Below are positions 4,227 to 44,067 of a stretch of DNA of 64,000 bases, one piece after another (within the stretch, counting starts at the first letter, position 1; every line of letters starts with the position of its first letter). The DNA is from a virus, in the IMG/VR virus record IMGVR_UViG_3300022842_000007, positions 1-64,000 of that record. The stretch is one strand, 5' to 3'. The translations under genes were made by a program, and so were the position numbers. Below the pieces are notes generated by a model. The model saw only the letters and a program-made list of their open reading frames with translations. It searched no databases and was not told where the DNA came from.

Positions 4227-4235
4227 GTGAACACT

Positions 4236-5747
4236 ATGATACATGTAGGAGTAAGTTGTGGATTCCATGATGCTGGTATGGCAGTCATTGATGGTGGTGG
4301 TGAGATATTATACGCAGGTCACTCTGAAAGGTATAGCAAGAAAAAACACGATAAGGATTTACATCCTGACATGGTGACAGATGCAATGAAATACGTATCT
4401 AACACTGATCCAATTCAATTATACTACTACGAAAGACCATTGGTGAAAATGATCAGAGAATTTATGTCTGGTCAATGGTCTAGAGGCTTGCGATCACCTT
4501 TATCATCACGCACGATTATAGGCAAAGAATTTATTAATGCTTTCTTACCTAGCACTCAATTAACAAAAAGAATAAAGAACAAGCCACATCACAAATGTCA
4601 TGCGGCCGCAGGCTTTCAAACATCACCTTTTAACGAAGCAACTGTCGTAGTGATCGATGCTATCGGCGAAGTTGACTGCGCGACTATCTGGCATGCCCAC
4701 TATAATAAAAAAGGTCATGCAAAGTACAAACGTTTATGGTCAATGAGATATCCTAATTCAATAGGTCTATTCTACAGTGCAATGACACATAGAATAGGAT
4801 TGCGCCCACTGGACGAAGAATACATTCTAATGGGAATGGCCGCATACGGACAACCCAAACATACAGCCGAAATTGAAGAATACTTTGGCGCAAACAATGA
4901 TAGATTGTTATTTACACGCAATGCACATGCCGGCGTAGACGAAACCTTCTTAGAAGGTGCTAATGAATTTGACATAGCCGCATCAACTCAAAGCTATGTA
5001 GAAAAATTAATTAAACTCGTAATGAACAAGGCACGAATTAAAGGTAAGAGTACGAATTTAGTCTATGGTGGAGGTTGTGCGTTAAACTGTTCCGCTAATC
5101 GGTTATTAGGCAGATACTTTAAAGACATTTGGATCATGCCTAATCCAGGAGATGCAGGTAATGCATTAGGTGCCGCGGCTTTGGGTTATGGCAAACGAGT
5201 AAATTGGAAGCATGCGTTCTTGGGTACTAACATTCCTGGCGCGTATCCTATTAAAGAGACTATCAACGCACTGAAGACAGATATGATTGTAGGCGTTGCC
5301 AGTGGTCGTGCGGAGTTCGGTCCTAGAGCATTAGGCACACGTAGTCTACTTGCAGATCCTCGAGGCTCAGAGATTAAAGATAAAGTGAACAAGATTAAAA
5401 AGAGACAAGAGTTCCGACCCTTTGCTCCAATGATACTAGAAGAACATGTACATAAATACTTTGTCATGCCTACCAATTGGGACTCTTCACCGTATATGCA
5501 AGTAACAGCGACTTGTAGATTTCCTGAAAAATTTCCTGCTATTGTACATGCAGACGGAACAAGCAGAGTTCAAACCATCTCCGATGATGGCACTGGAATA
5601 CGCAGGTTGTTGAAAGCCTGGCACAAAGAAACAGGTTGTCCTATTTTGCTTAATACCTCTCTAAACATTCGTGGAGAGCCAATGGTTAACGATAGGGAAG
5701 ACGCAGATCGTTTCGAGAAACTTTATAAGACCAAAGTCATCTCATAA
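4236..5747 (+). CDS. NodU/CmcH-family carbamoyltransferase
   Basis: About 503 residues, the usual size for the family. Characteristic segments in order: VGVSCGFHDAGMAV (N-terminal ASKHA-like phosphate loop), GHSERYSKKKHD, PHHKCHAAAG with the metal-binding histidines, VVIDAIGEVD, YGGGCALNCSANR, and the C-terminal YrdC-like GRAEFGPRALGTRSLLADPR. These enzymes move a carbamoyl group from carbamoyl phosphate via carbamoyl-AMP to a hydroxyl, usually on a sugar. A GTG at 4227 is an alternative start; ATG 4236 gives the standard N-terminus. Possible targets are virion glycans or modified bases. Confidence 0.9.
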   Translation: MIHVGVSCGFHDAGMAVIDGGGEILYAGHSERYSKKKHDKDLHPDMVTDAMKYVSNTDPIQLYYYERPLVKMIREFMSGQWSRGLRSPLSSRTIIGKEFINAFLPSTQLTKRIKNKPHHKCHAAAGFQTSPFNEATVVVIDAIGEVDCATIWHAHYNKKGHAKYKRLWSMRYPNSIGLFYSAMTHRIGLRPLDEEYILMGMAAYGQPKHTAEIEEYFGANNDRLLFTRNAHAGVDETFLEGANEFDIAASTQSYVEKLIKLVMNKARIKGKSTNLVYGGGCALNCSANRLLGRYFKDIWIMPNPGDAGNALGAAALGYGKRVNWKHAFLGTNIPGAYPIKETINALKTDMIVGVASGRAEFGPRALGTRSLLADPRGSEIKDKVNKIKKRQEFRPFAPMILEEHVHKYFVMPTNWDSSPYMQVTATCRFPEKFPAIVHADGTSRVQTISDDGTGIRRLLKAWHKETGCPILLNTSLNIRGEPMVNDREDADRFEKLYKTKVIS

Positions 5748-5755
5748 GTAGTAGT

Positions 5756-8700
5756 ATGCTTAGAGACGTATTTTATTTCGGTGAAAAACCAAATGTTCAT
5801 CCTAGAGAACAACATGTAAAAGATATTGATGTAGCCCGTCAATTATCGACTACCTTACATTTTTGGATAATAGATGAGTTCTGTGAATACGCAAATTTTG
5901 ATTGGGAATTCGATTTTGATTTCTTACCTGACGAAGATGTTTGGGCTGAAGAACATAATAACATCTGGCCAAGCAAACATCAAAAAGATTCTGGTACATG
6001 GCTGTGTCCAAAAGAAGAGAGTCAAATACGAGTCTATCGGGCTGACGTTAATCCAATCAATCGTAAACGAGAACCCAATGCATATTGGAAGTTTTTAGAT
6101 ACAGTAGATAAAAAGTCAATTGATTTTTCATGGCATCCAGATCCAACTGATCCACCTTACATCTATAAGTGGGGTAGTAAATTTGCTCCGGTTGAACTTG
6201 CCACGGTATTAGAATACCATACCCCTGGCAACAACGGTGTTGTCAAGAACTTAAACACAACTATATCATTATTACCTAACAATGATTGCATAACAGTGCA
6301 TCAACCTATTAACACCGATCGATGGGATATGTCTTGGCGCCCAGATCCAATGGATGAACCATACATATACGTTTGGGGCAATAAATGGATATCTGGTGAA
6401 CTAGAACCTACGCTTACATATACTGTAGAAGGCGCAACTGAACACAAATACATGGCGAATGCAATTCCTGTACTACCGCAAGATGATCGTTGGGAAATAC
6501 TCACCGCTATCGACGAAGAAACATTTGATTTTAGTTGGAGACCTGATCCAAGAGAGCCTGCATTTATATATGTGTTTGGAAATCATCTATACGAAGGCTC
6601 GATAATGCCTACCTTAAGATACACAATGCCTGATGCTACTGAAATTAAGTATGTATATGATATCAAACCCACATTAGCACAAAAGCCAGAATTGTTTGAA
6701 CATTTAGAAGACATTGATCAAACGTTATTTGACTATTCATGGAGACCTAATCCAACCGCACCTGCATATATGTATGCATGGGGCAATCAATGGAATGAAG
6801 CACAAGATAAAGTTAGTGTGCAGTTTGTAGTAGAAGATGCAACTGAATATCAATACATGGAAGAAAAGACAACTCGCAAAGCATGTAAAGATAACTGGAT
6901 TGTACCTACTAACTTAGACACCCGTGCATTTGATTTTAGTTGGGAGCCTAGCCCTAACGAACCAGCAATGATACATGAATTCGGTACTCAGTGGCAAAAG
7001 ACAGGTGGTCCTCAATATCATGTTGAAGGGGCAGTTGAAATAAAATATGAAAATGCATCTAAGGCTAACATATTACCTTCAGATAAGAGTAACTGGACAG
7101 TACCAAGTAACATAGACGCAGATACGTTTGACTTTAGTTGGCATCCAGATGCAACAAGCCCTCCCTATGTCTATCATTTCCCAACGCAATGGGCATTAAG
7201 TGGTGGTCCTCAATATCATGTTGATGGTGCGGATGAAACAAAGTATGTAGAAGATCAAGTGGCAAAGGCAAAAGCAAACAAAGAATATTGGGAATTTGAT
7301 TCTACTATCCTCGACGAGGGTGATTTTGATTACTCTTGGCATCCCTATGCGGAAGATGAACCATTCATCTATCAGTTTGGTACACAACACCAGAAAACAG
7401 GTGGCCACAAATACATGACGCCAGGTACACATGAAGGCAGTGCAGTCAAATACATTGATCCTCGTATTGCAAAATCAAAAAGATTACCTGATCCTAACAA
7501 CAGATACTGGGGTACTTTAGGTAATTATAAAATTAAAGACTTTGATTATTCATGGCACCATGATGAAACAGACGAAGCATTTGTTTATCACTTTGGTAAC
7601 AAATATTATTCAGCACAAGAAATGCCGACGGTCGAGTACAGAGTTCCTAATGCAGTTCAAATTAAGTATATCAATTCTATTGTGGCAGAACTACAACCTG
7701 TTAAAGAAGGCTGGACAATCCCTGCTGACATAGATGATTCAGAGTTTGACTATAGTTGGAGACCTTCTCCGTTAGAAGATCAAGCATACGTTTATCAGTT
7801 CGGTACTCAGTGGCAGAAAACAGATGGTCCTAGTTATAAAGTCGAAGGTGCAACTGACATTAAGTATGTCGAGGGCAATACTGCTAAGAAAAAACCTGAT
7901 CAATTGAAGTGGGATATCCCAATTGGCATTGACGTTGATGATTTTGATTTCTCGTGGCACCCAGACAGTACAGAGACATCTCCATTCATCTACCAGTTCG
8001 GCACTCAGTGGGCACTAACAGGCGGTCCTAGCTACATTGTCAAAGACGCCACTGAAGTTAAGTATGTTGAAGAACCTATTGCTAAAACATTAGTAAACAT
8101 GGAGAACTGGGAAGTCCCGACCGACGTAGATAGTTTCGACTTCTCTTGGCATCCTTATACACAAGACGATCCGTTCATCTATCAATTTGGTACACAACAT
8201 CAAAAGACTGATGGTCCTAGATACATCGTACCGGGCGCAACACAAGTCAAGTATGTTGACACTAGAATTATTAAAGCACGTAAACTAGCAAACAGTAAAA
8301 GAATGCATTGGGTTATACCCGATGATTGTGATGTCGATACGTTTGATTTCTCGTGGCATCCAGACAGTACAGCAAGCCCTGCAATCTATCAATTTGGTAG
8401 TGTAACAGGTAAAGATGATGGTCCGAAGTATATTACACCAGGCAACTCAGGTGAAGTTTTGTATTTGCAAAATATTAAATCTGATGGTGTTATGCCGGCA
8501 GAACTAGAAGTATACTTCATCAAGACTACACTCGAAGATTTGATAGCAGAACATAAAGGCGAAGTCTTCTGGGCAATCAACATAGACCTAGTGTACACTG
8601 ACTTTGATTTCTCATGGCGTCCTGATGTCTATCAGTCAAATTACATTCATGCATTCGGTTCTAAAGATAACATAGATACACAAACCTATTTTGTTAATGC

Positions 8701-10507
8701 TGTTATTTGGGAAAAAGGATTTAAGAACATAAACTACATTGAAACTGAGGCTGTTGCTATTAAAGCAAACTTAGATATGTTCTACGTAGATAGAGGTAAC
8801 AAAGAATCGAAAGAACGATTTGAGCAACTGCAACTTCGTTATCCTAATATACAGAAAACAAGATACTTAAACTCATGGGTAGAAACTACTCGTAGGTGTA
8901 TAAACAGATCAACAACCACATTGCTTTGGGTGTTAAATTCTGAGTTAGATTATGCAGAGTTTGATTTTGATTATTATCCCAACCCATGGCAGATGAAGAT
9001 GGTACACGTGTTCGGAACTCAATGGTCACATTGGGGGACAACTTACCTTGTCAGTAGAGAAACATTTAACGAAGATACGAAATTCATTCGTGTTATCGAA
9101 CATTTAAATAATCTAAACTTTGTCAAAGAGATTCGTGCCAAAGCAACAGAATGTGTATATGATGTTGTCGTGGTAGATCATGGCAATAAAGAAACAGACG
9201 CGGTTGTTAAACAACTTCAAGAGAAAGCACCAAGACAGCGGCTGACTACTATCGAACACGATACTGATTACCTTGTCACGTTAAAAAATATCATAGCCAA
9301 ATTACCTAAACGCAAGGAGCATTATATATGGATAGCATCATCTATTTGCGATTACAACGACTTTGATCTATCCTATATATGTGATCCGTTTGCACGTGAC
9401 CAGTTACATGTCTTTCCTAGCGACAAACAAAAGTTTGGAGATACATTCTTTATTGACGTAAACAAGACACGTGAAATTATCGATGGTATGACATCATTAG
9501 AAGATTATGAGAAGATAAACTACAATCAAACACTGCGTACACATCGCCTAAGGCCTCCTGTAATCATTTCTCCAGGTGATACGCACATGAAGACGATCAA
9601 AGACATTACTAACTTTCCTTATGCAGTATTAGTAGCAGAAACAGACAAAGATATACAAGTGGTAGACGAAGAACCAATGTCATTGTGGTCACAAGATAAA
9701 AAGAACATCATCGTCACTTCAACTGGTGCAACACGAATCATTGTTCCTCGCGAAGTTAAGGATGTGGTCAAGAAAGAACTGTATGAATATCCATATATCA
9801 AGAATGCGAATAGACTTGCGTTATCTAAACCAATGGACATAGTGTTTCTCTCTAATGGAGAAACAGGTGCAGAGGAAAACTGGGAGCATCTGCAAAAGAT
9901 AACCAAGAACTTACCGAATCGAGTAGTAAGAGTTGATGGCGTTGATGGCAGAGTAAAAGCATATCATGCCTCAGCAGAAGCAAGCGAGACACCATGGGCA
10001 TTTACAGTCTTTGCTAAACTTAAAGTCTCGCCCAAGTTTGACTTTAACTGGCAACCAGATCGTATGCAAAGACAGAAACATTATATCTTTGAAGCAAAGA
10101 ATCCAGTTACTGGTCTAGTCTATGGACATCAGGCTATGATTGCATACAACAAAGAACTAACTCTTAGCAACTATGGTTATGGCCTAGACTTCACACTAGA
10201 TGATGACCATGCAAGTATTTCGTTGTTGTCGGGCATTGCAAAGTACAACACTGATGCATTCTCAACGTGGCGCACAGCATTTAGAGAAGTGATTAAACTA
10301 TTGTGTGATGATACAGAGATAAGCAAGACTCGTTTAGATACATGGTTGAATATAGCAGATCCAGATCAGCCTTTCTTCCAAGAATCGATTAAGGGTGCAA
10401 TATGTGGAGAAGAATACTTTGAAGAAGTCGATGGAGATTTCGAGAAGTTGCGTTTAAGTTATGAATGGAAATGGCTTGCAGAAAGGTATGCAGAAGTTTC
10501 TTATTAA
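5756..10507 (+). CDS. Giant tandem-repeat protein with glycosyltransferase-like C-terminus
   Basis: A 1583-residue protein, the largest in the window. About 16 degenerate repeats of 70-90 residues are built on FDFSWHPDP-x-PPYIYxFGxQW, GGPxYxVxGATExKYVE, then a W-rich linker. The last three units (from about residue 990) add a strand-helix segment of the kind DVVVVDHGNKE ... YIWIASSICDYNDFD, reminiscent of a GT-A glycosyltransferase core. The C-terminus (NGETGAEENWEHLQ, LDFTLDDDHASI) also looks glycosyltransferase-like. No signal peptide or transmembrane segment is seen. It lies 8 bases after the carbamoyltransferase and is convergent with the next gene. Either a repetitive glycan-binding/transferase protein or a virion protein; the call is inference. 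Confidence 0.6.
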   Translation: MLRDVFYFGEKPNVHPREQHVKDIDVARQLSTTLHFWIIDEFCEYANFDWEFDFDFLPDEDVWAEEHNNIWPSKHQKDSGTWLCPKEESQIRVYRADVNPINRKREPNAYWKFLDTVDKKSIDFSWHPDPTDPPYIYKWGSKFAPVELATVLEYHTPGNNGVVKNLNTTISLLPNNDCITVHQPINTDRWDMSWRPDPMDEPYIYVWGNKWISGELEPTLTYTVEGATEHKYMANAIPVLPQDDRWEILTAIDEETFDFSWRPDPREPAFIYVFGNHLYEGSIMPTLRYTMPDATEIKYVYDIKPTLAQKPELFEHLEDIDQTLFDYSWRPNPTAPAYMYAWGNQWNEAQDKVSVQFVVEDATEYQYMEEKTTRKACKDNWIVPTNLDTRAFDFSWEPSPNEPAMIHEFGTQWQKTGGPQYHVEGAVEIKYENASKANILPSDKSNWTVPSNIDADTFDFSWHPDATSPPYVYHFPTQWALSGGPQYHVDGADETKYVEDQVAKAKANKEYWEFDSTILDEGDFDYSWHPYAEDEPFIYQFGTQHQKTGGHKYMTPGTHEGSAVKYIDPRIAKSKRLPDPNNRYWGTLGNYKIKDFDYSWHHDETDEAFVYHFGNKYYSAQEMPTVEYRVPNAVQIKYINSIVAELQPVKEGWTIPADIDDSEFDYSWRPSPLEDQAYVYQFGTQWQKTDGPSYKVEGATDIKYVEGNTAKKKPDQLKWDIPIGIDVDDFDFSWHPDSTETSPFIYQFGTQWALTGGPSYIVKDATEVKYVEEPIAKTLVNMENWEVPTDVDSFDFSWHPYTQDDPFIYQFGTQHQKTDGPRYIVPGATQVKYVDTRIIKARKLANSKRMHWVIPDDCDVDTFDFSWHPDSTASPAIYQFGSVTGKDDGPKYITPGNSGEVLYLQNIKSDGVMPAELEVYFIKTTLEDLIAEHKGEVFWAINIDLVYTDFDFSWRPDVYQSNYIHAFGSKDNIDTQTYFVNAVIWEKGFKNINYIETEAVAIKANLDMFYVDRGNKESKERFEQLQLRYPNIQKTRYLNSWVETTRRCINRSTTTLLWVLNSELDYAEFDFDYYPNPWQMKMVHVFGTQWSHWGTTYLVSRETFNEDTKFIRVIEHLNNLNFVKEIRAKATECVYDVVVVDHGNKETDAVVKQLQEKAPRQRLTTIEHDTDYLVTLKNIIAKLPKRKEHYIWIASSICDYNDFDLSYICDPFARDQLHVFPSDKQKFGDTFFIDVNKTREIIDGMTSLEDYEKINYNQTLRTHRLRPPVIISPGDTHMKTIKDITNFPYAVLVAETDKDIQVVDEEPMSLWSQDKKNIIVTSTGATRIIVPREVKDVVKKELYEYPYIKNANRLALSKPMDIVFLSNGETGAEENWEHLQKITKNLPNRVVRVDGVDGRVKAYHASAEASETPWAFTVFAKLKVSPKFDFNWQPDRMQRQKHYIFEAKNPVTGLVYGHQAMIAYNKELTLSNYGYGLDFTLDDDHASISLLSGIAKYNTDAFSTWRTAFREVIKLLCDDTEISKTRLDTWLNIADPDQPFFQESIKGAICGEEYFEEVDGDFEKLRLSYEWKWLAERYAEVSY

Positions 10508-10510
10508 AGT

Positions 10511-11758
10511 TTAATCGTACTCACCATATAGGTCTTCTTCTGCCCCGTTTTCAGGGTTATCATCTGCGTAGTGTGGTAAATATGTGTTATAAGCCGTAAC
10601 AAGTTCTTTATGCCTGTCTGCAATCTCTTGTGGCAAGTCCATCTCCTCATCTTGTGGGTCCATAATATTACTGTAGGCCCACTCTACGCCTTTATTTCCC
10701 TCTGGAGTGACAGCATACACTACCAGTTGTAATTTATTAACCTCGGTAGCCTGATTATCAGGTTCTCCGCAACTGTCGCATTCTTTAAATCCATATTTCT
10801 CAAGATCATCCCGCGTCGTCCCATCCCGGTATGTTAATTTCTTTACTATCTCACCACCACAATACTGGCATGATACATCAACTTTTATTGGTGGCGTAAA
10901 ATTGAATATAAGGATAGACTGGCCTTCAAATGGTTTGCTGTATTCATCGAAATAATTGGTTGATTCGGTTGACGCAGTACACCATTGAGTACCTTGTCCG
11001 TAATAACAGGCGGCTGCTTCGTCCTTCGGCCAATAAACAGTCATTACGTCATCTTTGTAAAGAATTTGTGCATCGCCCTTACCCAGTTTAGCTGGTTTGC
11101 CGTACTCTTTATGAAGTAGTTGAGCCCATCTTGAAAACGCCACAGCAGTGGGGTATTGTCGAATATCTCTCTTGTCAACAGGTAACCTTGCTTTCATGCG
11201 TTCAAATTTACCCAGTCCATCAGCTAATGTTGCTCGACCATCTTCTATGTTTGGAAAGTTTCCGGTACCAAACTCGTTTGAAGAGATATACCATTTAATG
11301 ATTTGTAATGTGTACTTTTTACTCTGAGTTGGATCGAATTGTTCAAGTATGCTTATTAAGGCAGTCGCTATCTGATCTTGTAATTCCGATATTGCTTGAT
11401 TAACATACCCTTCTATCGCTTTATTCATAGATCCATCTAATACGTTAAGTGCTTGGTTGTCTGAGGTTCCATGATCCATTAGTCTATTATAGACGTATGG
11501 ATGAAGTATGTGCAATGCCGTAACTTGATAATCATTCAACGTACTTTTCCAAATTATTGCGCGAGATTCATCTGAGTTAGGGGCACTTCTAAAAAAGTTC
11601 CTCAACTCTGAATCATCATCGCCAGCGGCCGGAAGATCGCCTAGGTGATTTGCAAAGCTTTTTAGGTCTAGTTTCTGTACGATTTTATTGCCAAGTTTCT
11701 GTACTGTCGCTTGAGTGTTGTACTCTAATAATATATGTTTGAATTCATAATAACGCAT
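10511..11758 (-). CDS. WCTA-motif phage protein with zinc ribbon and capsid-targeting-like leader
   Basis: A 415-residue protein on the reverse strand. CYYGQGTQWCTAS (about residues 257-269) is a motif shared by many uncharacterised phage proteins. Between residues 305 and 345 CQYCGG and CDSCGE form a likely zinc ribbon. The N-terminus MRYYEFKHILLE resembles the T4 internal-protein leader MKTYQEFIAE and ends in an LLE cleavage-like motif. The C-terminus is very acidic. It is convergent with the giant repeat gene, with 3 bases between them. Catalytic role unknown; head packaging is inferred. Confidence 0.6.
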   Translation of the reverse strand: MRYYEFKHILLEYNTQATVQKLGNKIVQKLDLKSFANHLGDLPAAGDDDSELRNFFRSAPNSDESRAIIWKSTLNDYQVTALHILHPYVYNRLMDHGTSDNQALNVLDGSMNKAIEGYVNQAISELQDQIATALISILEQFDPTQSKKYTLQIIKWYISSNEFGTGNFPNIEDGRATLADGLGKFERMKARLPVDKRDIRQYPTAVAFSRWAQLLHKEYGKPAKLGKGDAQILYKDDVMTVYWPKDEAAACYYGQGTQWCTASTESTNYFDEYSKPFEGQSILIFNFTPPIKVDVSCQYCGGEIVKKLTYRDGTTRDDLEKYGFKECDSCGEPDNQATEVNKLQLVVYAVTPEGNKGVEWAYSNIMDPQDEEMDLPQEIADRHKELVTAYNTYLPHYADDNPENGAEEDLYGEYD

Positions 11759-11792
11759 TATGTATTTAGCTAAAACAGTTTACCCAGAAAGA

Positions 11793-11820
11793 TTGTTATT
11801 GTATAGGATCAATGTATAAT
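11793..11820 (+). promoter_or_regulatory. Sigma70-like promoter for tmRNA
   Basis: TTGTTA (11793-11798), 16-bp spacer, perfect TATAAT (11815-11820). The 16-bp spacing equals that of the three strongest promoters in the window. It lies directly upstream of the permuted tmRNA. Confidence 0.65.
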
Positions 11821-11821
11821 G

Positions 11822-11828
11822 CTAAATA
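11822..11828 (+). promoter_or_regulatory. Possible late promoter core (CTAAATA) at the tmRNA
   Basis: CTAAATA directly after the sigma70-like -10 element. The same heptamer precedes several late-type genes here, so the tmRNA could be transcribed both early and late. A single heptamer can occur by chance. Confidence 0.4.
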
Positions 11829-11897
11829 GATTCGATTGTTGTATGAAGTGAAGTGAAAGGTGTTTTGGACGCCGGTTCGACTCCGGCCATCTCCACC

Positions 11898-11929
11898 AAA
11901 AGCATATTGGATAAGGGTAGTATGCTTTT
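11898..11929 (+). other. Intervening hairpin joining tmRNA acceptor and coding pieces
   Basis: AAAAGCATA (11898-11906) pairs perfectly with TATGCTTTT (11921-11929) around a 14-base loop. It extends the acceptor stem in the precursor and would be removed to leave the CCA end and the 5' GGGG end. Confidence 0.85.
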
Positions 11930-12100
11930 GATGGGGATGCAACGGGATTCGACAGAGCAATTATTAATGGAACGGACAACACAGTAGGCGATGACTGTAA
12001 ATCAAGCAGAAACTATAATTGACAAAAACAATTATGCAATGGAAGATTACGCACTAGCTGCCTAATCCCCCGAGGCTAATCACCTCGTCACCAAACGATA

Positions 12101-12124
12101 GAGGGGGAATCCAAGTTCCCCCTC
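12101..12124 (+). terminator. Terminator-like hairpin after tmRNA
   Basis: A perfect 9-bp stem (GAGGGGGAA with TTCCCCCTC) with loop TCCAAG, followed by a T-rich but interrupted tail. Its GGGGG also matches the CCCCC at 12067-12071, so the same bases could pair in a tmRNA pseudoknot instead. Confidence 0.6.
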
Positions 12125-12152
12125 GCCTATTTCTCACTCCCACTACCCAGCG

Positions 12153-12159
12153 ATAAATA
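12153..12159 (+). promoter_or_regulatory. T4-type late promoter core
   Basis: ATAAATA 6 bases before the ATG at 12165. The leader is too short for a ribosome-binding site on the new transcript, so its use for that gene is uncertain. Confidence 0.5.
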
Positions 12160-12164
12160 CTTGC

Positions 12165-13388
12165 ATGAATATACTTGAACTGGAAAAATTTAAGATCGAA
12201 GATGCAATCAACTTCCACGATGAATACAATCCTTGGTTATTTGACGGCGACAAACTAAAACCTGTCATTAAGAAGCAACTAGAAACTATTTCAAATGATT
12301 TTGTTGAATACATGGGAATACCTGATCTCGCATTAGAAGACATCATCATCACAGGATCTAATGTAGCATACACATACACACCTCACAGTGACATTGATTT
12401 ACATTTGCTTGTAGATTTTAGTAAATTGTCAGACTCAGATGTGTATCGAGAATTATTCAATGCGAAGAAATCTCTCTATAATAATACGTATGACATTACT
12501 ATCAGAGATATTACGGTTGAACTCTATGTTCAAGATACAGCACAAGCCCACACCAGTTTAGGTGAATACAGTTTATTCCAAGACAAATTCACCCGTATAC
12601 CTACAAAGAAACGCGCAAACTTAGATGAAATCTCAGCCGCCGCAAAGTTTGAAAAATTAGAAGCAATGGCGATTGAAGGATTAGCATCTCCTGACATGGA
12701 ACGAGTTAATCGAGTGCTTGGAATCATTAAACGATATCGTCAAGCAGGATTAGATACTCATGGCGAGTTTGGTCCAGAGAATTTGGCCTTTAAGGCAATC
12801 AGATCAAAGGGATATTTTCGAGCGTTACACGATCATAAGAACAAATTAAGAGCAGATCAACTATCACTCGAAGAAGAATTCTTCCGCAGAACGTTCGAAG
12901 AATCACTTGGTGTTGGTTTGATTGAAGAAAGGCCCAATATTCCTGCATCGACTGCCGATGATCTCGCAATGAAATATGAGGTAAGTAAAAGAGAAGTAGC
13001 AAAACAAATAGACCTGGGCACTAGAATTGAAATGGCATCTAATCCTAACGTTACTGCTATCTCCACTAATCTTAGAAGAGAGCAAGCAAGGGCAATTGCG
13101 ATTGCAAATATAAACATAAAACTTGAATACTATCCAAAAATGATCGTTTTTAGAAAAGAGGTTGCTAGATTAAAAAGAGAACAGCCTAACACTGATACAG
13201 ACGATAATGAAATGATGGAAGCATCTGGTTATATACCAAGTGAAAAGCAAAAGAATGATCCTAGATGGTCATATGCGTTGACCAAAGATGTCAGACCCGA
13301 CACCATGCAAAAAGGTGCCAAAGCAATGGGACTCGGCAATATTTCACGTGCAGGTGTTCCTCCTCTCTTGCGTCCCGGCAAGAAATAA
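12165..13388 (+). CDS. Nucleotidyltransferase-fold phage protein
   Basis: A 407-residue protein. IITGSNVAYTYTPHSDIDLHL (about residues 61-81) is the pol-beta-type nucleotidyltransferase signature: GS, then DxD at D76/D78. A third acidic strand (ITVELYVQD) lies near residue 118. The C-terminus (SGYIPSEKQKNDPRWSYAL, then SRAGVPPLLRPGKK) looks like a conserved tail of marine phage proteins. Its place right after the tmRNA invites an RNA substrate, but nothing in the sequence fixes the target. The N-terminal leader MNILELEKF is only weakly capsid-targeting-like. Confidence 0.7.
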   Translation: MNILELEKFKIEDAINFHDEYNPWLFDGDKLKPVIKKQLETISNDFVEYMGIPDLALEDIIITGSNVAYTYTPHSDIDLHLLVDFSKLSDSDVYRELFNAKKSLYNNTYDITIRDITVELYVQDTAQAHTSLGEYSLFQDKFTRIPTKKRANLDEISAAAKFEKLEAMAIEGLASPDMERVNRVLGIIKRYRQAGLDTHGEFGPENLAFKAIRSKGYFRALHDHKNKLRADQLSLEEEFFRRTFEESLGVGLIEERPNIPASTADDLAMKYEVSKREVAKQIDLGTRIEMASNPNVTAISTNLRREQARAIAIANINIKLEYYPKMIVFRKEVARLKREQPNTDTDDNEMMEASGYIPSEKQKNDPRWSYALTKDVRPDTMQKGAKAMGLGNISRAGVPPLLRPGKK

Positions 13389-14767: not shown

Positions 14768-15865
14768 ATGTCTCAACTAACCGATACACTGACTGTAACT
14801 ACAGTCTCCGCAAAAAAATCAATTATAAAATGTTTCAAGAAGAAACGTCCATTATTCATATGGGGGCCGCCAGGTATTGGCAAGTCTGAAATAGTTGAAG
14901 AAGTTGCTGAAGAACTTGGTGGTATTGTAATTGATCTGCGTATGGCACAGATGGAGCCTACTGATATTCGAGGTATCCCCTTCTTCAACAAAGACTTATG
15001 CGTTATGGATTGGGCTCCCCCAATCGAACTTCCTTCTGAAGCGTTTGCCGCTCAATACTCTATCGTAGTCTTATTCTTAGACGAAATGAATTCAGCTATG
15101 CCCTCAGTACAGGCTGTAGGGTATCAGTTAATACTTAACCGCAGAGTTGGTAAGTATGTTCTCCCAGACAATGTTGTGCTTGTCGCGGCAGGTAATAGAG
15201 ATTCTGACAAAGGTGTCACTTATCGAATGCCACTGCCTTTAGCTAACAGATTCATTCACATAGAATTGCGTCCTGATTTCGCGGCTTGGCTGGATTGGGC
15301 TACAACGAACCGCATACACAAAGATGTTGTTGGTTACTTGTCATTTGCAAAGCAAGATTTGTATGACTTTAATGCAAAATCTTCTAGTAGAGCATTTGCT
15401 ACTCCTAGAACATGGACTTTTGTAAGCCAGTTATTAGAAGATGATGATTGTGATGCAGAGACTCTTTTCCATCTTGTGGCAGGAACGATTGGTGAAGGTC
15501 TTGCTACTAAGTTTATGGCACATCGTAAGATTGCTAGTAGAATGCCGAACCCAACAGATATTCTGTCAGGTAAGGTGAAAGAACTTCAGGTGAAAGAAAT
15601 TTCTGCAATGTACTCTTTGACTGTTTCAATGTGCTATGAACTTAAAGATAGCCTGGACAACAAAAGAGTTAACTCGAAAGAGTTTCATAAAATGTGTGAT
15701 AACTTCTTTGGTTACATGATGGCTAACTTTGAAACTGAACTAGTAGTGATGGGAGCAAAAGTTGCTCTTAAAAATTACAAGTTGCCAATTGAACCTTCTC
15801 GATTGAGAAACTTTGATGAGTTTCATAAGAGATATGGAAGCTACATAGTTGAGGCAGGCAACTAA
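14768..15865 (+). CDS. MoxR-type AAA+ ATPase
   Basis: A 365-residue protein. Walker A GPPGIGKS (33-40), Walker B LFLDEMN (D104, E105), sensor 1 AAGNRDSD (N142) and LPLANRF with the arginine-finger region place it in the MoxR/AAA_5 group. These ATPases act as chaperones working with VWA-domain partners that bind metal; such a partner lies two genes downstream. It has its own promoter at 14706. The target complex is unknown. Confidence 0.85.
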   Translation: MSQLTDTLTVTTVSAKKSIIKCFKKKRPLFIWGPPGIGKSEIVEEVAEELGGIVIDLRMAQMEPTDIRGIPFFNKDLCVMDWAPPIELPSEAFAAQYSIVVLFLDEMNSAMPSVQAVGYQLILNRRVGKYVLPDNVVLVAAGNRDSDKGVTYRMPLPLANRFIHIELRPDFAAWLDWATTNRIHKDVVGYLSFAKQDLYDFNAKSSSRAFATPRTWTFVSQLLEDDDCDAETLFHLVAGTIGEGLATKFMAHRKIASRMPNPTDILSGKVKELQVKEISAMYSLTVSMCYELKDSLDNKRVNSKEFHKMCDNFFGYMMANFETELVVMGAKVALKNYKLPIEPSRLRNFDEFHKRYGSYIVEAGN

Positions 15866-43270: not shown

Positions 43271-43520
43271 CGATACAGTAGAAAGACAGCGGTTGCGCAT
43301 AAACTCAGAGAAGTGGGGGAAGGGTATTACAACACTTCATGCGCATTCATTAACATCTATGTGGTATGATACACGCAAGACAGATGGCTCGGTAATAGAC
43401 ACTGAATACAATAATGGTTCTATTAAACGAGTAATACAAAACACTGGTGAAATTATTTACTTTGGAAAAGCACTCACAGGAGATGCATTAATGGATGCAT
43501 ACGGAAGTCATGGGCAATAA
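43257..43520 (+). CDS. Small hypothetical protein
   Basis: An 87-residue protein from GTG 43257, overlapping the DnaE-like gene by 14 bases and the deformylase by 26. GITTLHAHSLTSMWYDTRK is followed by a beta-rich end. Family unknown. Confidence 0.55.
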   Translation: MTEYSDTVERQRLRINSEKWGKGITTLHAHSLTSMWYDTRKTDGSVIDTEYNNGSIKRVIQNTGEIIYFGKALTGDALMDAYGSHGQ

Positions 43521-44067
43521 ACTAGAACTTACGCTAATTGATGAAAGTAATCCTTTATTAAAAGAACCCTGCACTGCCTGGGATTTTACATCAGACGGTT
43601 CACCAACTGAACTGGTGTCTGCTTTGACAAGAGTTATGTTTAGCCCTAATCATGGTGGTATTGGGTTGGCCGCACCACAGTGTGGAGTGATGAAAAATAT
43701 ATTTGTCATGGGAAGCAATGAAAATTTGATTGCTGTTATTAATCCTGTCATTGATGAATTAATTGGCGACAAAGAGATGTACTTAGAAGGTTGTTTAAGT
43801 TATCCTGATCTTTGGTTACATGTACTAAGACATCCAGAATGCATCGTATCGTATCAAACACTCGACGGCACTGCGGTTGAAAGAAAACATCTTACGGATC
43901 TACAAGCAAGAGTATTTTTACACGAATTTGATCATTTATTAGGTATAACATTTGAAGAACGAGTACAGAGTAAACTTAGTTTAGAATTAGCTAAGAAGCG
44001 TAGAGTAAAGAAGAGGCGTCAAACAGAAAAAGCTATCAAAAGAATGAAAGCGAAAGCAACTCAGTAG
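43495..44067 (+). CDS. def: Peptide deformylase
   Basis: A 190-residue protein. Motif 1 GIGLAAPQ (55-62), motif 2 EGCLSYP (98-104) with zinc ligand C100, and motif 3 HEFDHL with H143, catalytic E144 and H147 are all intact. Removes formyl from new proteins. Phage deformylases are well known in marine viruses. The Lys/Arg-rich C-terminal tail is an addition. ATG 43510 is an alternative start. Confidence 0.95.
   Translation: MHTEVMGNKLELTLIDESNPLLKEPCTAWDFTSDGSPTELVSALTRVMFSPNHGGIGLAAPQCGVMKNIFVMGSNENLIAVINPVIDELIGDKEMYLEGCLSYPDLWLHVLRHPECIVSYQTLDGTAVERKHLTDLQARVFLHEFDHLLGITFEERVQSKLSLELAKKRRVKKRRQTEKAIKRMKAKATQ

Follow-up and report, generated by a model that had tools for sequence, protein, structure and literature searches.

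Two-piece tmRNAs in phages and bacteria

In bacteria, two-piece tmRNA frees stalled ribosomes and marks broken proteins for destruction. Among phages, tmRNAs have long been listed (PMC4131195), and a two-piece form was reported in 2022 in the phage Melnitz; of the 133 unique structures of phage tmRNAs, 53 were judged to be two-piece, mostly aquatic (PMC9004378). Permuted genes are likewise present in Stenotrophomonas phages (Menderavirus, DLP6), where they give a beta-type Rfam match, and in two isolated phages, Sinorhizobium phage Phosso (alpha subtype) and Synechococcus phage S-CRM01 (cyano subtype). A further tmRNA has been reported from another Sinorhizobium jumbo phage (PMC11242549).

Here we describe such a gene, of beta subtype, in a window of 64,000 bases (bases 1-64000 of an incomplete virus record of 92,110 bases). 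The ssrA of Melnitz (Methylophilales phage EXVC043M) is likewise two-piece and carried by a T4-like phage (PMC9004378); its tag also has 14 aa and ends in DYALAA, and TATAAATA lies just upstream of the gene, in the same place as the late promoter core of the window. It differs in its Rfam alpha subtype, its resume codon (GCA) and a glutamine riboswitch downstream, and its authors assigned it an early promoter (PMC9004378). The Stenotrophomonas phage genes differ in lying inside tRNA arrays, with other tags and no late core found. With the betaproteobacterial two-piece tmRNA (RF01850) the window gene has in common the gene order, the tRNA-like domain, pseudoknot 1 (PK1), the downstream knot and the terminal hairpin. 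Phosso is a jumbo phage with a related terminase (47.8%).

Because two-piece phage tmRNAs are already published, the idea in the initial annotation is not new and the gene is not of a new kind. It clearly adds an example, with a few new details, namely a clade that resumes at Asp or Gly rather than at the usual Ala, together with late-expression signals.

A complete permuted tmRNA gene

Two independent programs confirmed the tmRNA. ARAGORN called a permuted tmRNA (tmRNA*) at 11806-12156 (+) with the tag DKNNYAMEDYALAA, the sole RNA gene that it found in the window, and two Rfam models matched above cut-off: RF04321 tmRNA_permuted (11837-12065, 129.4 bits against a cut-off of 47, E 5e-25) and RF01850 beta_tmRNA (11782-12125, 112.7 bits against 84, E 2e-33). 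At the same locus the alpha model (RF01849, 41.7 bits, cut-off 50) and the cyano model (RF01851, 58.6 bits, cut-off 70) stayed below threshold, which places the gene with beta_tmRNA. The standard tmRNA model gave only two broken, sub-cut-off pieces, as expected of a permuted gene. The complete gene spans 11837-12125 (+), and 11840-12125 folds with an energy 3.8 standard deviations under that of shuffled sequences. As first annotated, the acceptor piece, with its T arm and CCA, is encoded 5' of the mRNA-like piece: the CCA ends at 11898 and G1 of the acceptor stem lies at 11933 (Table 1). The Rfam subtype was rejected as a host marker, since the near relative L242 is of alpha type and the window clade of beta type.

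We read this locus, with a probability of about 0.88, as a functional tmRNA gene of the permuted, two-piece kind belonging to a large phage of the T4 superfamily, including the expression and the rescue role proposed below.

Table 1. Features of the tmRNA locus (window coordinates)
Feature	Positions	Strand	Basis
Sigma70-type promoter TTGTTA-16-TATAAT	11793-11820	+	10/12 consensus matches
T4-type late core CTAAATA, predicted +1 near 11834	11822-11828	+	enriched motif
Acceptor piece, ending in encoded CCA (11896-11898)	11837-11898	+	RF04321 match starts at 11837
P2 helix, 5' strand UGUUG, pairing with CAACA (11977-11981)	11837-11841	+	Rfam structure
T arm, stem GCCGG/CCGGC, loop TTCGACT	11871-11887	+	Rfam structure and anchored pairing
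Acceptor stem, 3' strand CATCTCC, and discriminator A11895	11888-11895	+	pairs with 11933-11939
Joining segment, presumably cut out during processing	11899-11932	+	sequence
mRNA-like piece, acceptor-stem G1 to terminal hairpin	11933-12124	+	ARAGORN, Rfam
PK1, stem 1 ACAGU/ACUGU	11981-11998	+	strands 11981-11985/11994-11998
A at -4 that sets the frame (A12017), resume codon GAC (12021-12023)	12017-12023	+	tmRNA comparison
Tag frame DKNNYAMEDYALAA (12021-12062) and stop TAA (12063-12065)	12021-12065	+	ARAGORN
Downstream pseudoknot, CGAGG (12071-12075)/CCUCG (12083-12087) and CUAAUC (12076-12081)/GAUAG (12097-12101)	12071-12101	+	hand pairing
3' terminal hairpin GAGGGGGAA/TTCCCCCTC, possible terminator	12101-12124	+	aligned to last stem of RF01850
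Late core ATAAATA for the following gene, 5 nt ahead of ATG	12153-12159	+	motif enrichment, spacing count
Pol-beta-type nucleotidyltransferase-like protein (GS-x10-DID)	12165-13388	+	directly 3' of tmRNA in 7/7 clade relatives

Helices and joining segment

The split ends pair as a 7-bp acceptor stem (GGGGATG, 11933-11939, with CATCTCC, 11888-11894), as the initial annotation had proposed, with one G-U at position 3. A G-U at the third acceptor pair is the identity mark of alanine; here it is found together with CCA and is invariant in six clade members (the window and five close relatives). Helix pairs were counted through explicit anchors, and two MAFFT alignments were left out of the counts, A1 for having two loci in the wrong orientation and A2 for a misaligned joining segment. 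On this basis the acceptor stem carries a compensatory A-U to G-C change in five relatives, and P2, which joins the two pieces in the Rfam-based structure, a U-A to C-G change in L239; in the same relative, C-G and A-U pairs of PK1 are swapped for G-C pairs. A11981 can be used by P2 or by PK1, not by both. The downstream pseudoknot lies where the beta_tmRNA consensus has its equivalent knot, and its second stem reads GGUA/UACC in four relatives.

The joining hairpin was first described as a perfect 9-bp helix, and this holds for the window (AAAAGCATA, 11898-11906, with TATGCTTTT, 11921-11929). It includes the last A of the CCA, and the five close relatives L237-L241 have instead a joining segment of 12 nt without the hairpin. 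The hairpin is thus not a defining part of the gene, and we rejected it as a conserved one.

The tag and its resume codon

An A placed four bases ahead of the resume codon sets the tmRNA frame (PMC2481249). This A was present in 49 of the 49 unique tmRNAs compared, a count to be read with the possible preference of ARAGORN itself for such a signal. In the window, A12017 holds this position, and the frame closes, as previously noted, on the hydrophobic end YALAA and a stop. The resume codon is GCN in 43 of the same 49 tmRNAs and GAC or GGC in the window clade, whose tags are DKNNYAMEDYALAA, DNNYEMEDYALAA and GNDYTMEDYALAA. The tags of seven related contigs end in MEDYALAA, and all four substitutions within this block are synonymous (chance about 0.002-0.006, in a small sample that sets the window against a single clade); the stop alternates between TAA and TAG among clade relatives.

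An exact search, in which near-identical records may have been missing, found no second copy of the window tag. The betaproteobacterial host tags seen have 10 aa and are of the ANDERFALAA type, whereas the phage tag has 14 aa and starts from GAC. The suggestion that the phage has a tag of its own held. Less expected were the resume codon, the greater tag length relative to the bacterial genes sampled, and the late core. Among other phage tags, L022 (3348-3728) has an odd 28-aa tag with an internal VALAA, the tag of L010 (5904-6249) ends in AANA and not LAA, and those of L012 and L030 end in RLVA.

A bolder proposal, which we regard as rather unlikely, is that the tag has been rebuilt: its front half, which the host adaptor reads, would be altered (Asp/Gly resume, MED) and the protease-read end kept. 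The tmRNA would then act late, and proteins tagged during infection would escape host control over trans-translation and pass straight to ClpXP.

The RNA might also act as a decoy that binds host SmpB or ribosomes and so blocks host trans-translation, as has been proposed for the tRNA-domain-only RNA of mycobacteriophage DS6A. Such RNA does inhibit tmRNA (PMC4131195), and the absence of a phage SmpB would suit this role. For a decoy a tag frame is unnecessary, yet the tag codons of the window gene are under selection and its resume signal is intact, and we consider a decoy very improbable.

Promoters and late signal

The initial annotation had given the gene its own promoters, one sigma70-like and one late-type. 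The sigma70-type site is weak by itself, because a scan of 700 bp found four such sites where 1.8 were expected. The late core at 11822-11828 overlaps the region of this site. Among 7-mers lying 8-50 nt ahead of genes in the 92-kb record, ATAAATA shows the strongest enrichment (17 of 37 copies, p 2.5e-16), and CTAAATA is likewise enriched there (6 of 18, p 7e-6). Both sites recur at the same place in L257 (TTGTAA-16-TATAAT, with an equal 16-nt spacer).

The motif was also counted across phage tmRNA loci, of which an 80% identity filter left 34 with distinct upstream regions. NTAAATA occurs within 72 nt upstream in 14 of them, and in 13 it sits near the gene start. Random stretches of these loci would give 1.0 (never more than 8 in 2000 draws), and letter-shuffled copies of the upstream regions 2.9 (maximum 9); none of eight bacterial tmRNA loci has it. 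Given this enrichment, late expression of the tmRNA is well supported as a signal. L237, L238, L240 and L241 have no clear late core upstream of the tmRNA, which in these contigs looks cotranscribed with the preceding gene. No late sigma factor was detected among the ORFs tested in the incomplete record.

A second arrangement is a spacing of exactly 5 nt between [AC]TAAATA and the start codon ATG in ORFs of at least 60 aa, seen for 8 of 55 cores in the 92-kb record (1 of 718 in a permuted-motif control). These cores lie at 12153, 28139 and 50503 of the window and at 73779 and 91217 of the record, with three sites on the - strand. T4 spacing would make the late mRNAs leaderless. The 5-nt spacing is kept ahead of the homologue of the 12165 gene in nearly all relatives seen.

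Phage context and host partners

The T4-like affiliation first proposed for the virus holds: its T4-superfamily terminase is 48.1% identical to that of PA5oct over 97%, and the ATAAATA late-promoter motif is enriched. The record also encodes SSB, a DnaB-like helicase and a primase. A phage-encoded peptide deformylase (43495-44067) is a second translation-related gene. A Nol-like carbamoyltransferase (4227-5747) is followed by a 1583-aa protein (5756-10507) with repeated FDFSWHPD-like units and no family match.

The virus was initially thought to supply its own rescue and tagging RNA. The RNA gene is indeed present; its partner SmpB was not found in the partial 92-kb record, nor was SspB, and SmpB was likewise not found in 21 further tmRNA-bearing phage records, among them three isolate genomes. 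Host SmpB is therefore presumed to serve, and the tmRNA would have to work with host AlaRS, nucleases and proteases as well. A pattern scan of genome contigs gave only two near matches, one of them to a tmRNA of the standard form, and these do not allow a host to be named. Among 200 genomes belonging to the order that gave the beta-type match, 7 had beta_tmRNA above cut-off.

Conservation of the gene and its locus

Seven permuted tmRNAs were found among 50 viral records with related terminases. The gene is present in all six relatives that have a terminase identity of at least 76% and at least 16 kb of contig ahead of the terminase. A search with the tag pattern added two further clade contigs (L255 and L257, one of them cut at its end). 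Eight phage contigs, the window included, have the same tmRNA locus; relatedness among the sequences inflates such counts somewhat despite filtering, and many relatives are fragments. A pattern search found permuted tmRNAs in 33 more viral contigs.

We weighed whether the gene could be a decaying, host-derived copy out of use. Phage ssrA fragments are known to arise from imprecise prophage excision (PMC9004378), and no SmpB stands alongside the tmRNA. Against decay, the tmRNA is full length with every part present, and among relatives of about 82-86% identity the helices change in a compensatory way and the MEDYALAA block only synonymously, which indicates that the gene is maintained and not a relic. 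Locus and double promoter are conserved too. Conservation thus argues strongly against decay, which we hold to be slightly less probable even than a decoy.

The clade shares a gene order: a homologue of 10511-11758 (31-36% identity where contigs reach it), the tmRNA, a homologue of the 12165 gene (58-73%) and the homologue of the ATPase at 14768 (76-78% where covered). In the more distant L040 and L041, too, a permuted tmRNA precedes the 12165 homologue, and the fetched stretch holds a tmRNA at 12 of 80 ATPase loci. L040 has 24 tRNAs directly ahead of its tmRNA; the whole 92-kb record contains no tRNA gene besides the tmRNA. The least probable account is that host DNA was misassembled into the contig or that the gene is an integration-site copy. 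Integration at tmRNA genes is common (PMC11915505), yet phage genes flank this one, its gene order is common to independent viral contigs from different metagenomes, no bacterial genome was met with this tmRNA gene at the same locus, and the gene is complete and not an attachment fragment.

The downstream neighbour (12165-13388) keeps the residues of its GS-x10-DxD motif invariant in 11 sequences. The Pfam matches of the window copy are under cut-off and its predicted structure is of low confidence (pLDDT 63). The product might conceivably act on tRNA or tmRNA ends.

Proposed function and significance

Expression, cleavage, charging, tagging and benefit, as we infer them from the gene, would proceed as follows for a functional phage tmRNA. 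Transcription would start from the sigma70-type and the overlapping T4-type late promoter, and host tRNA-processing enzymes would cut the precursor at the joining segment into the acceptor and mRNA-like pieces, which the acceptor and P2 helices would hold together. Host AlaRS would charge the molecule through G3-U, and host SmpB would bring it to stalled ribosomes. Translation would resume at GAC 12021, appending (A)DKNNYAMEDYALAA, and the LAA end would direct the tagged product to host ClpXP-type proteases. Ribosomes would thereby be kept free in infection while phage and host mRNAs are broken down.

The gene adds a clade of large phages, with at least eight contigs, in which the two-piece tmRNA is a fixed and selected part of the genome. 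It raises two testable points: that phage tmRNAs may be made late in infection, where the published view for Melnitz is early, and that viruses may edit the degradation tag, first codon included, while keeping its protease end. If the tag has indeed been rebuilt, the late promoters of many phage tmRNAs would indicate that ribosome rescue is needed in the assembly phase.
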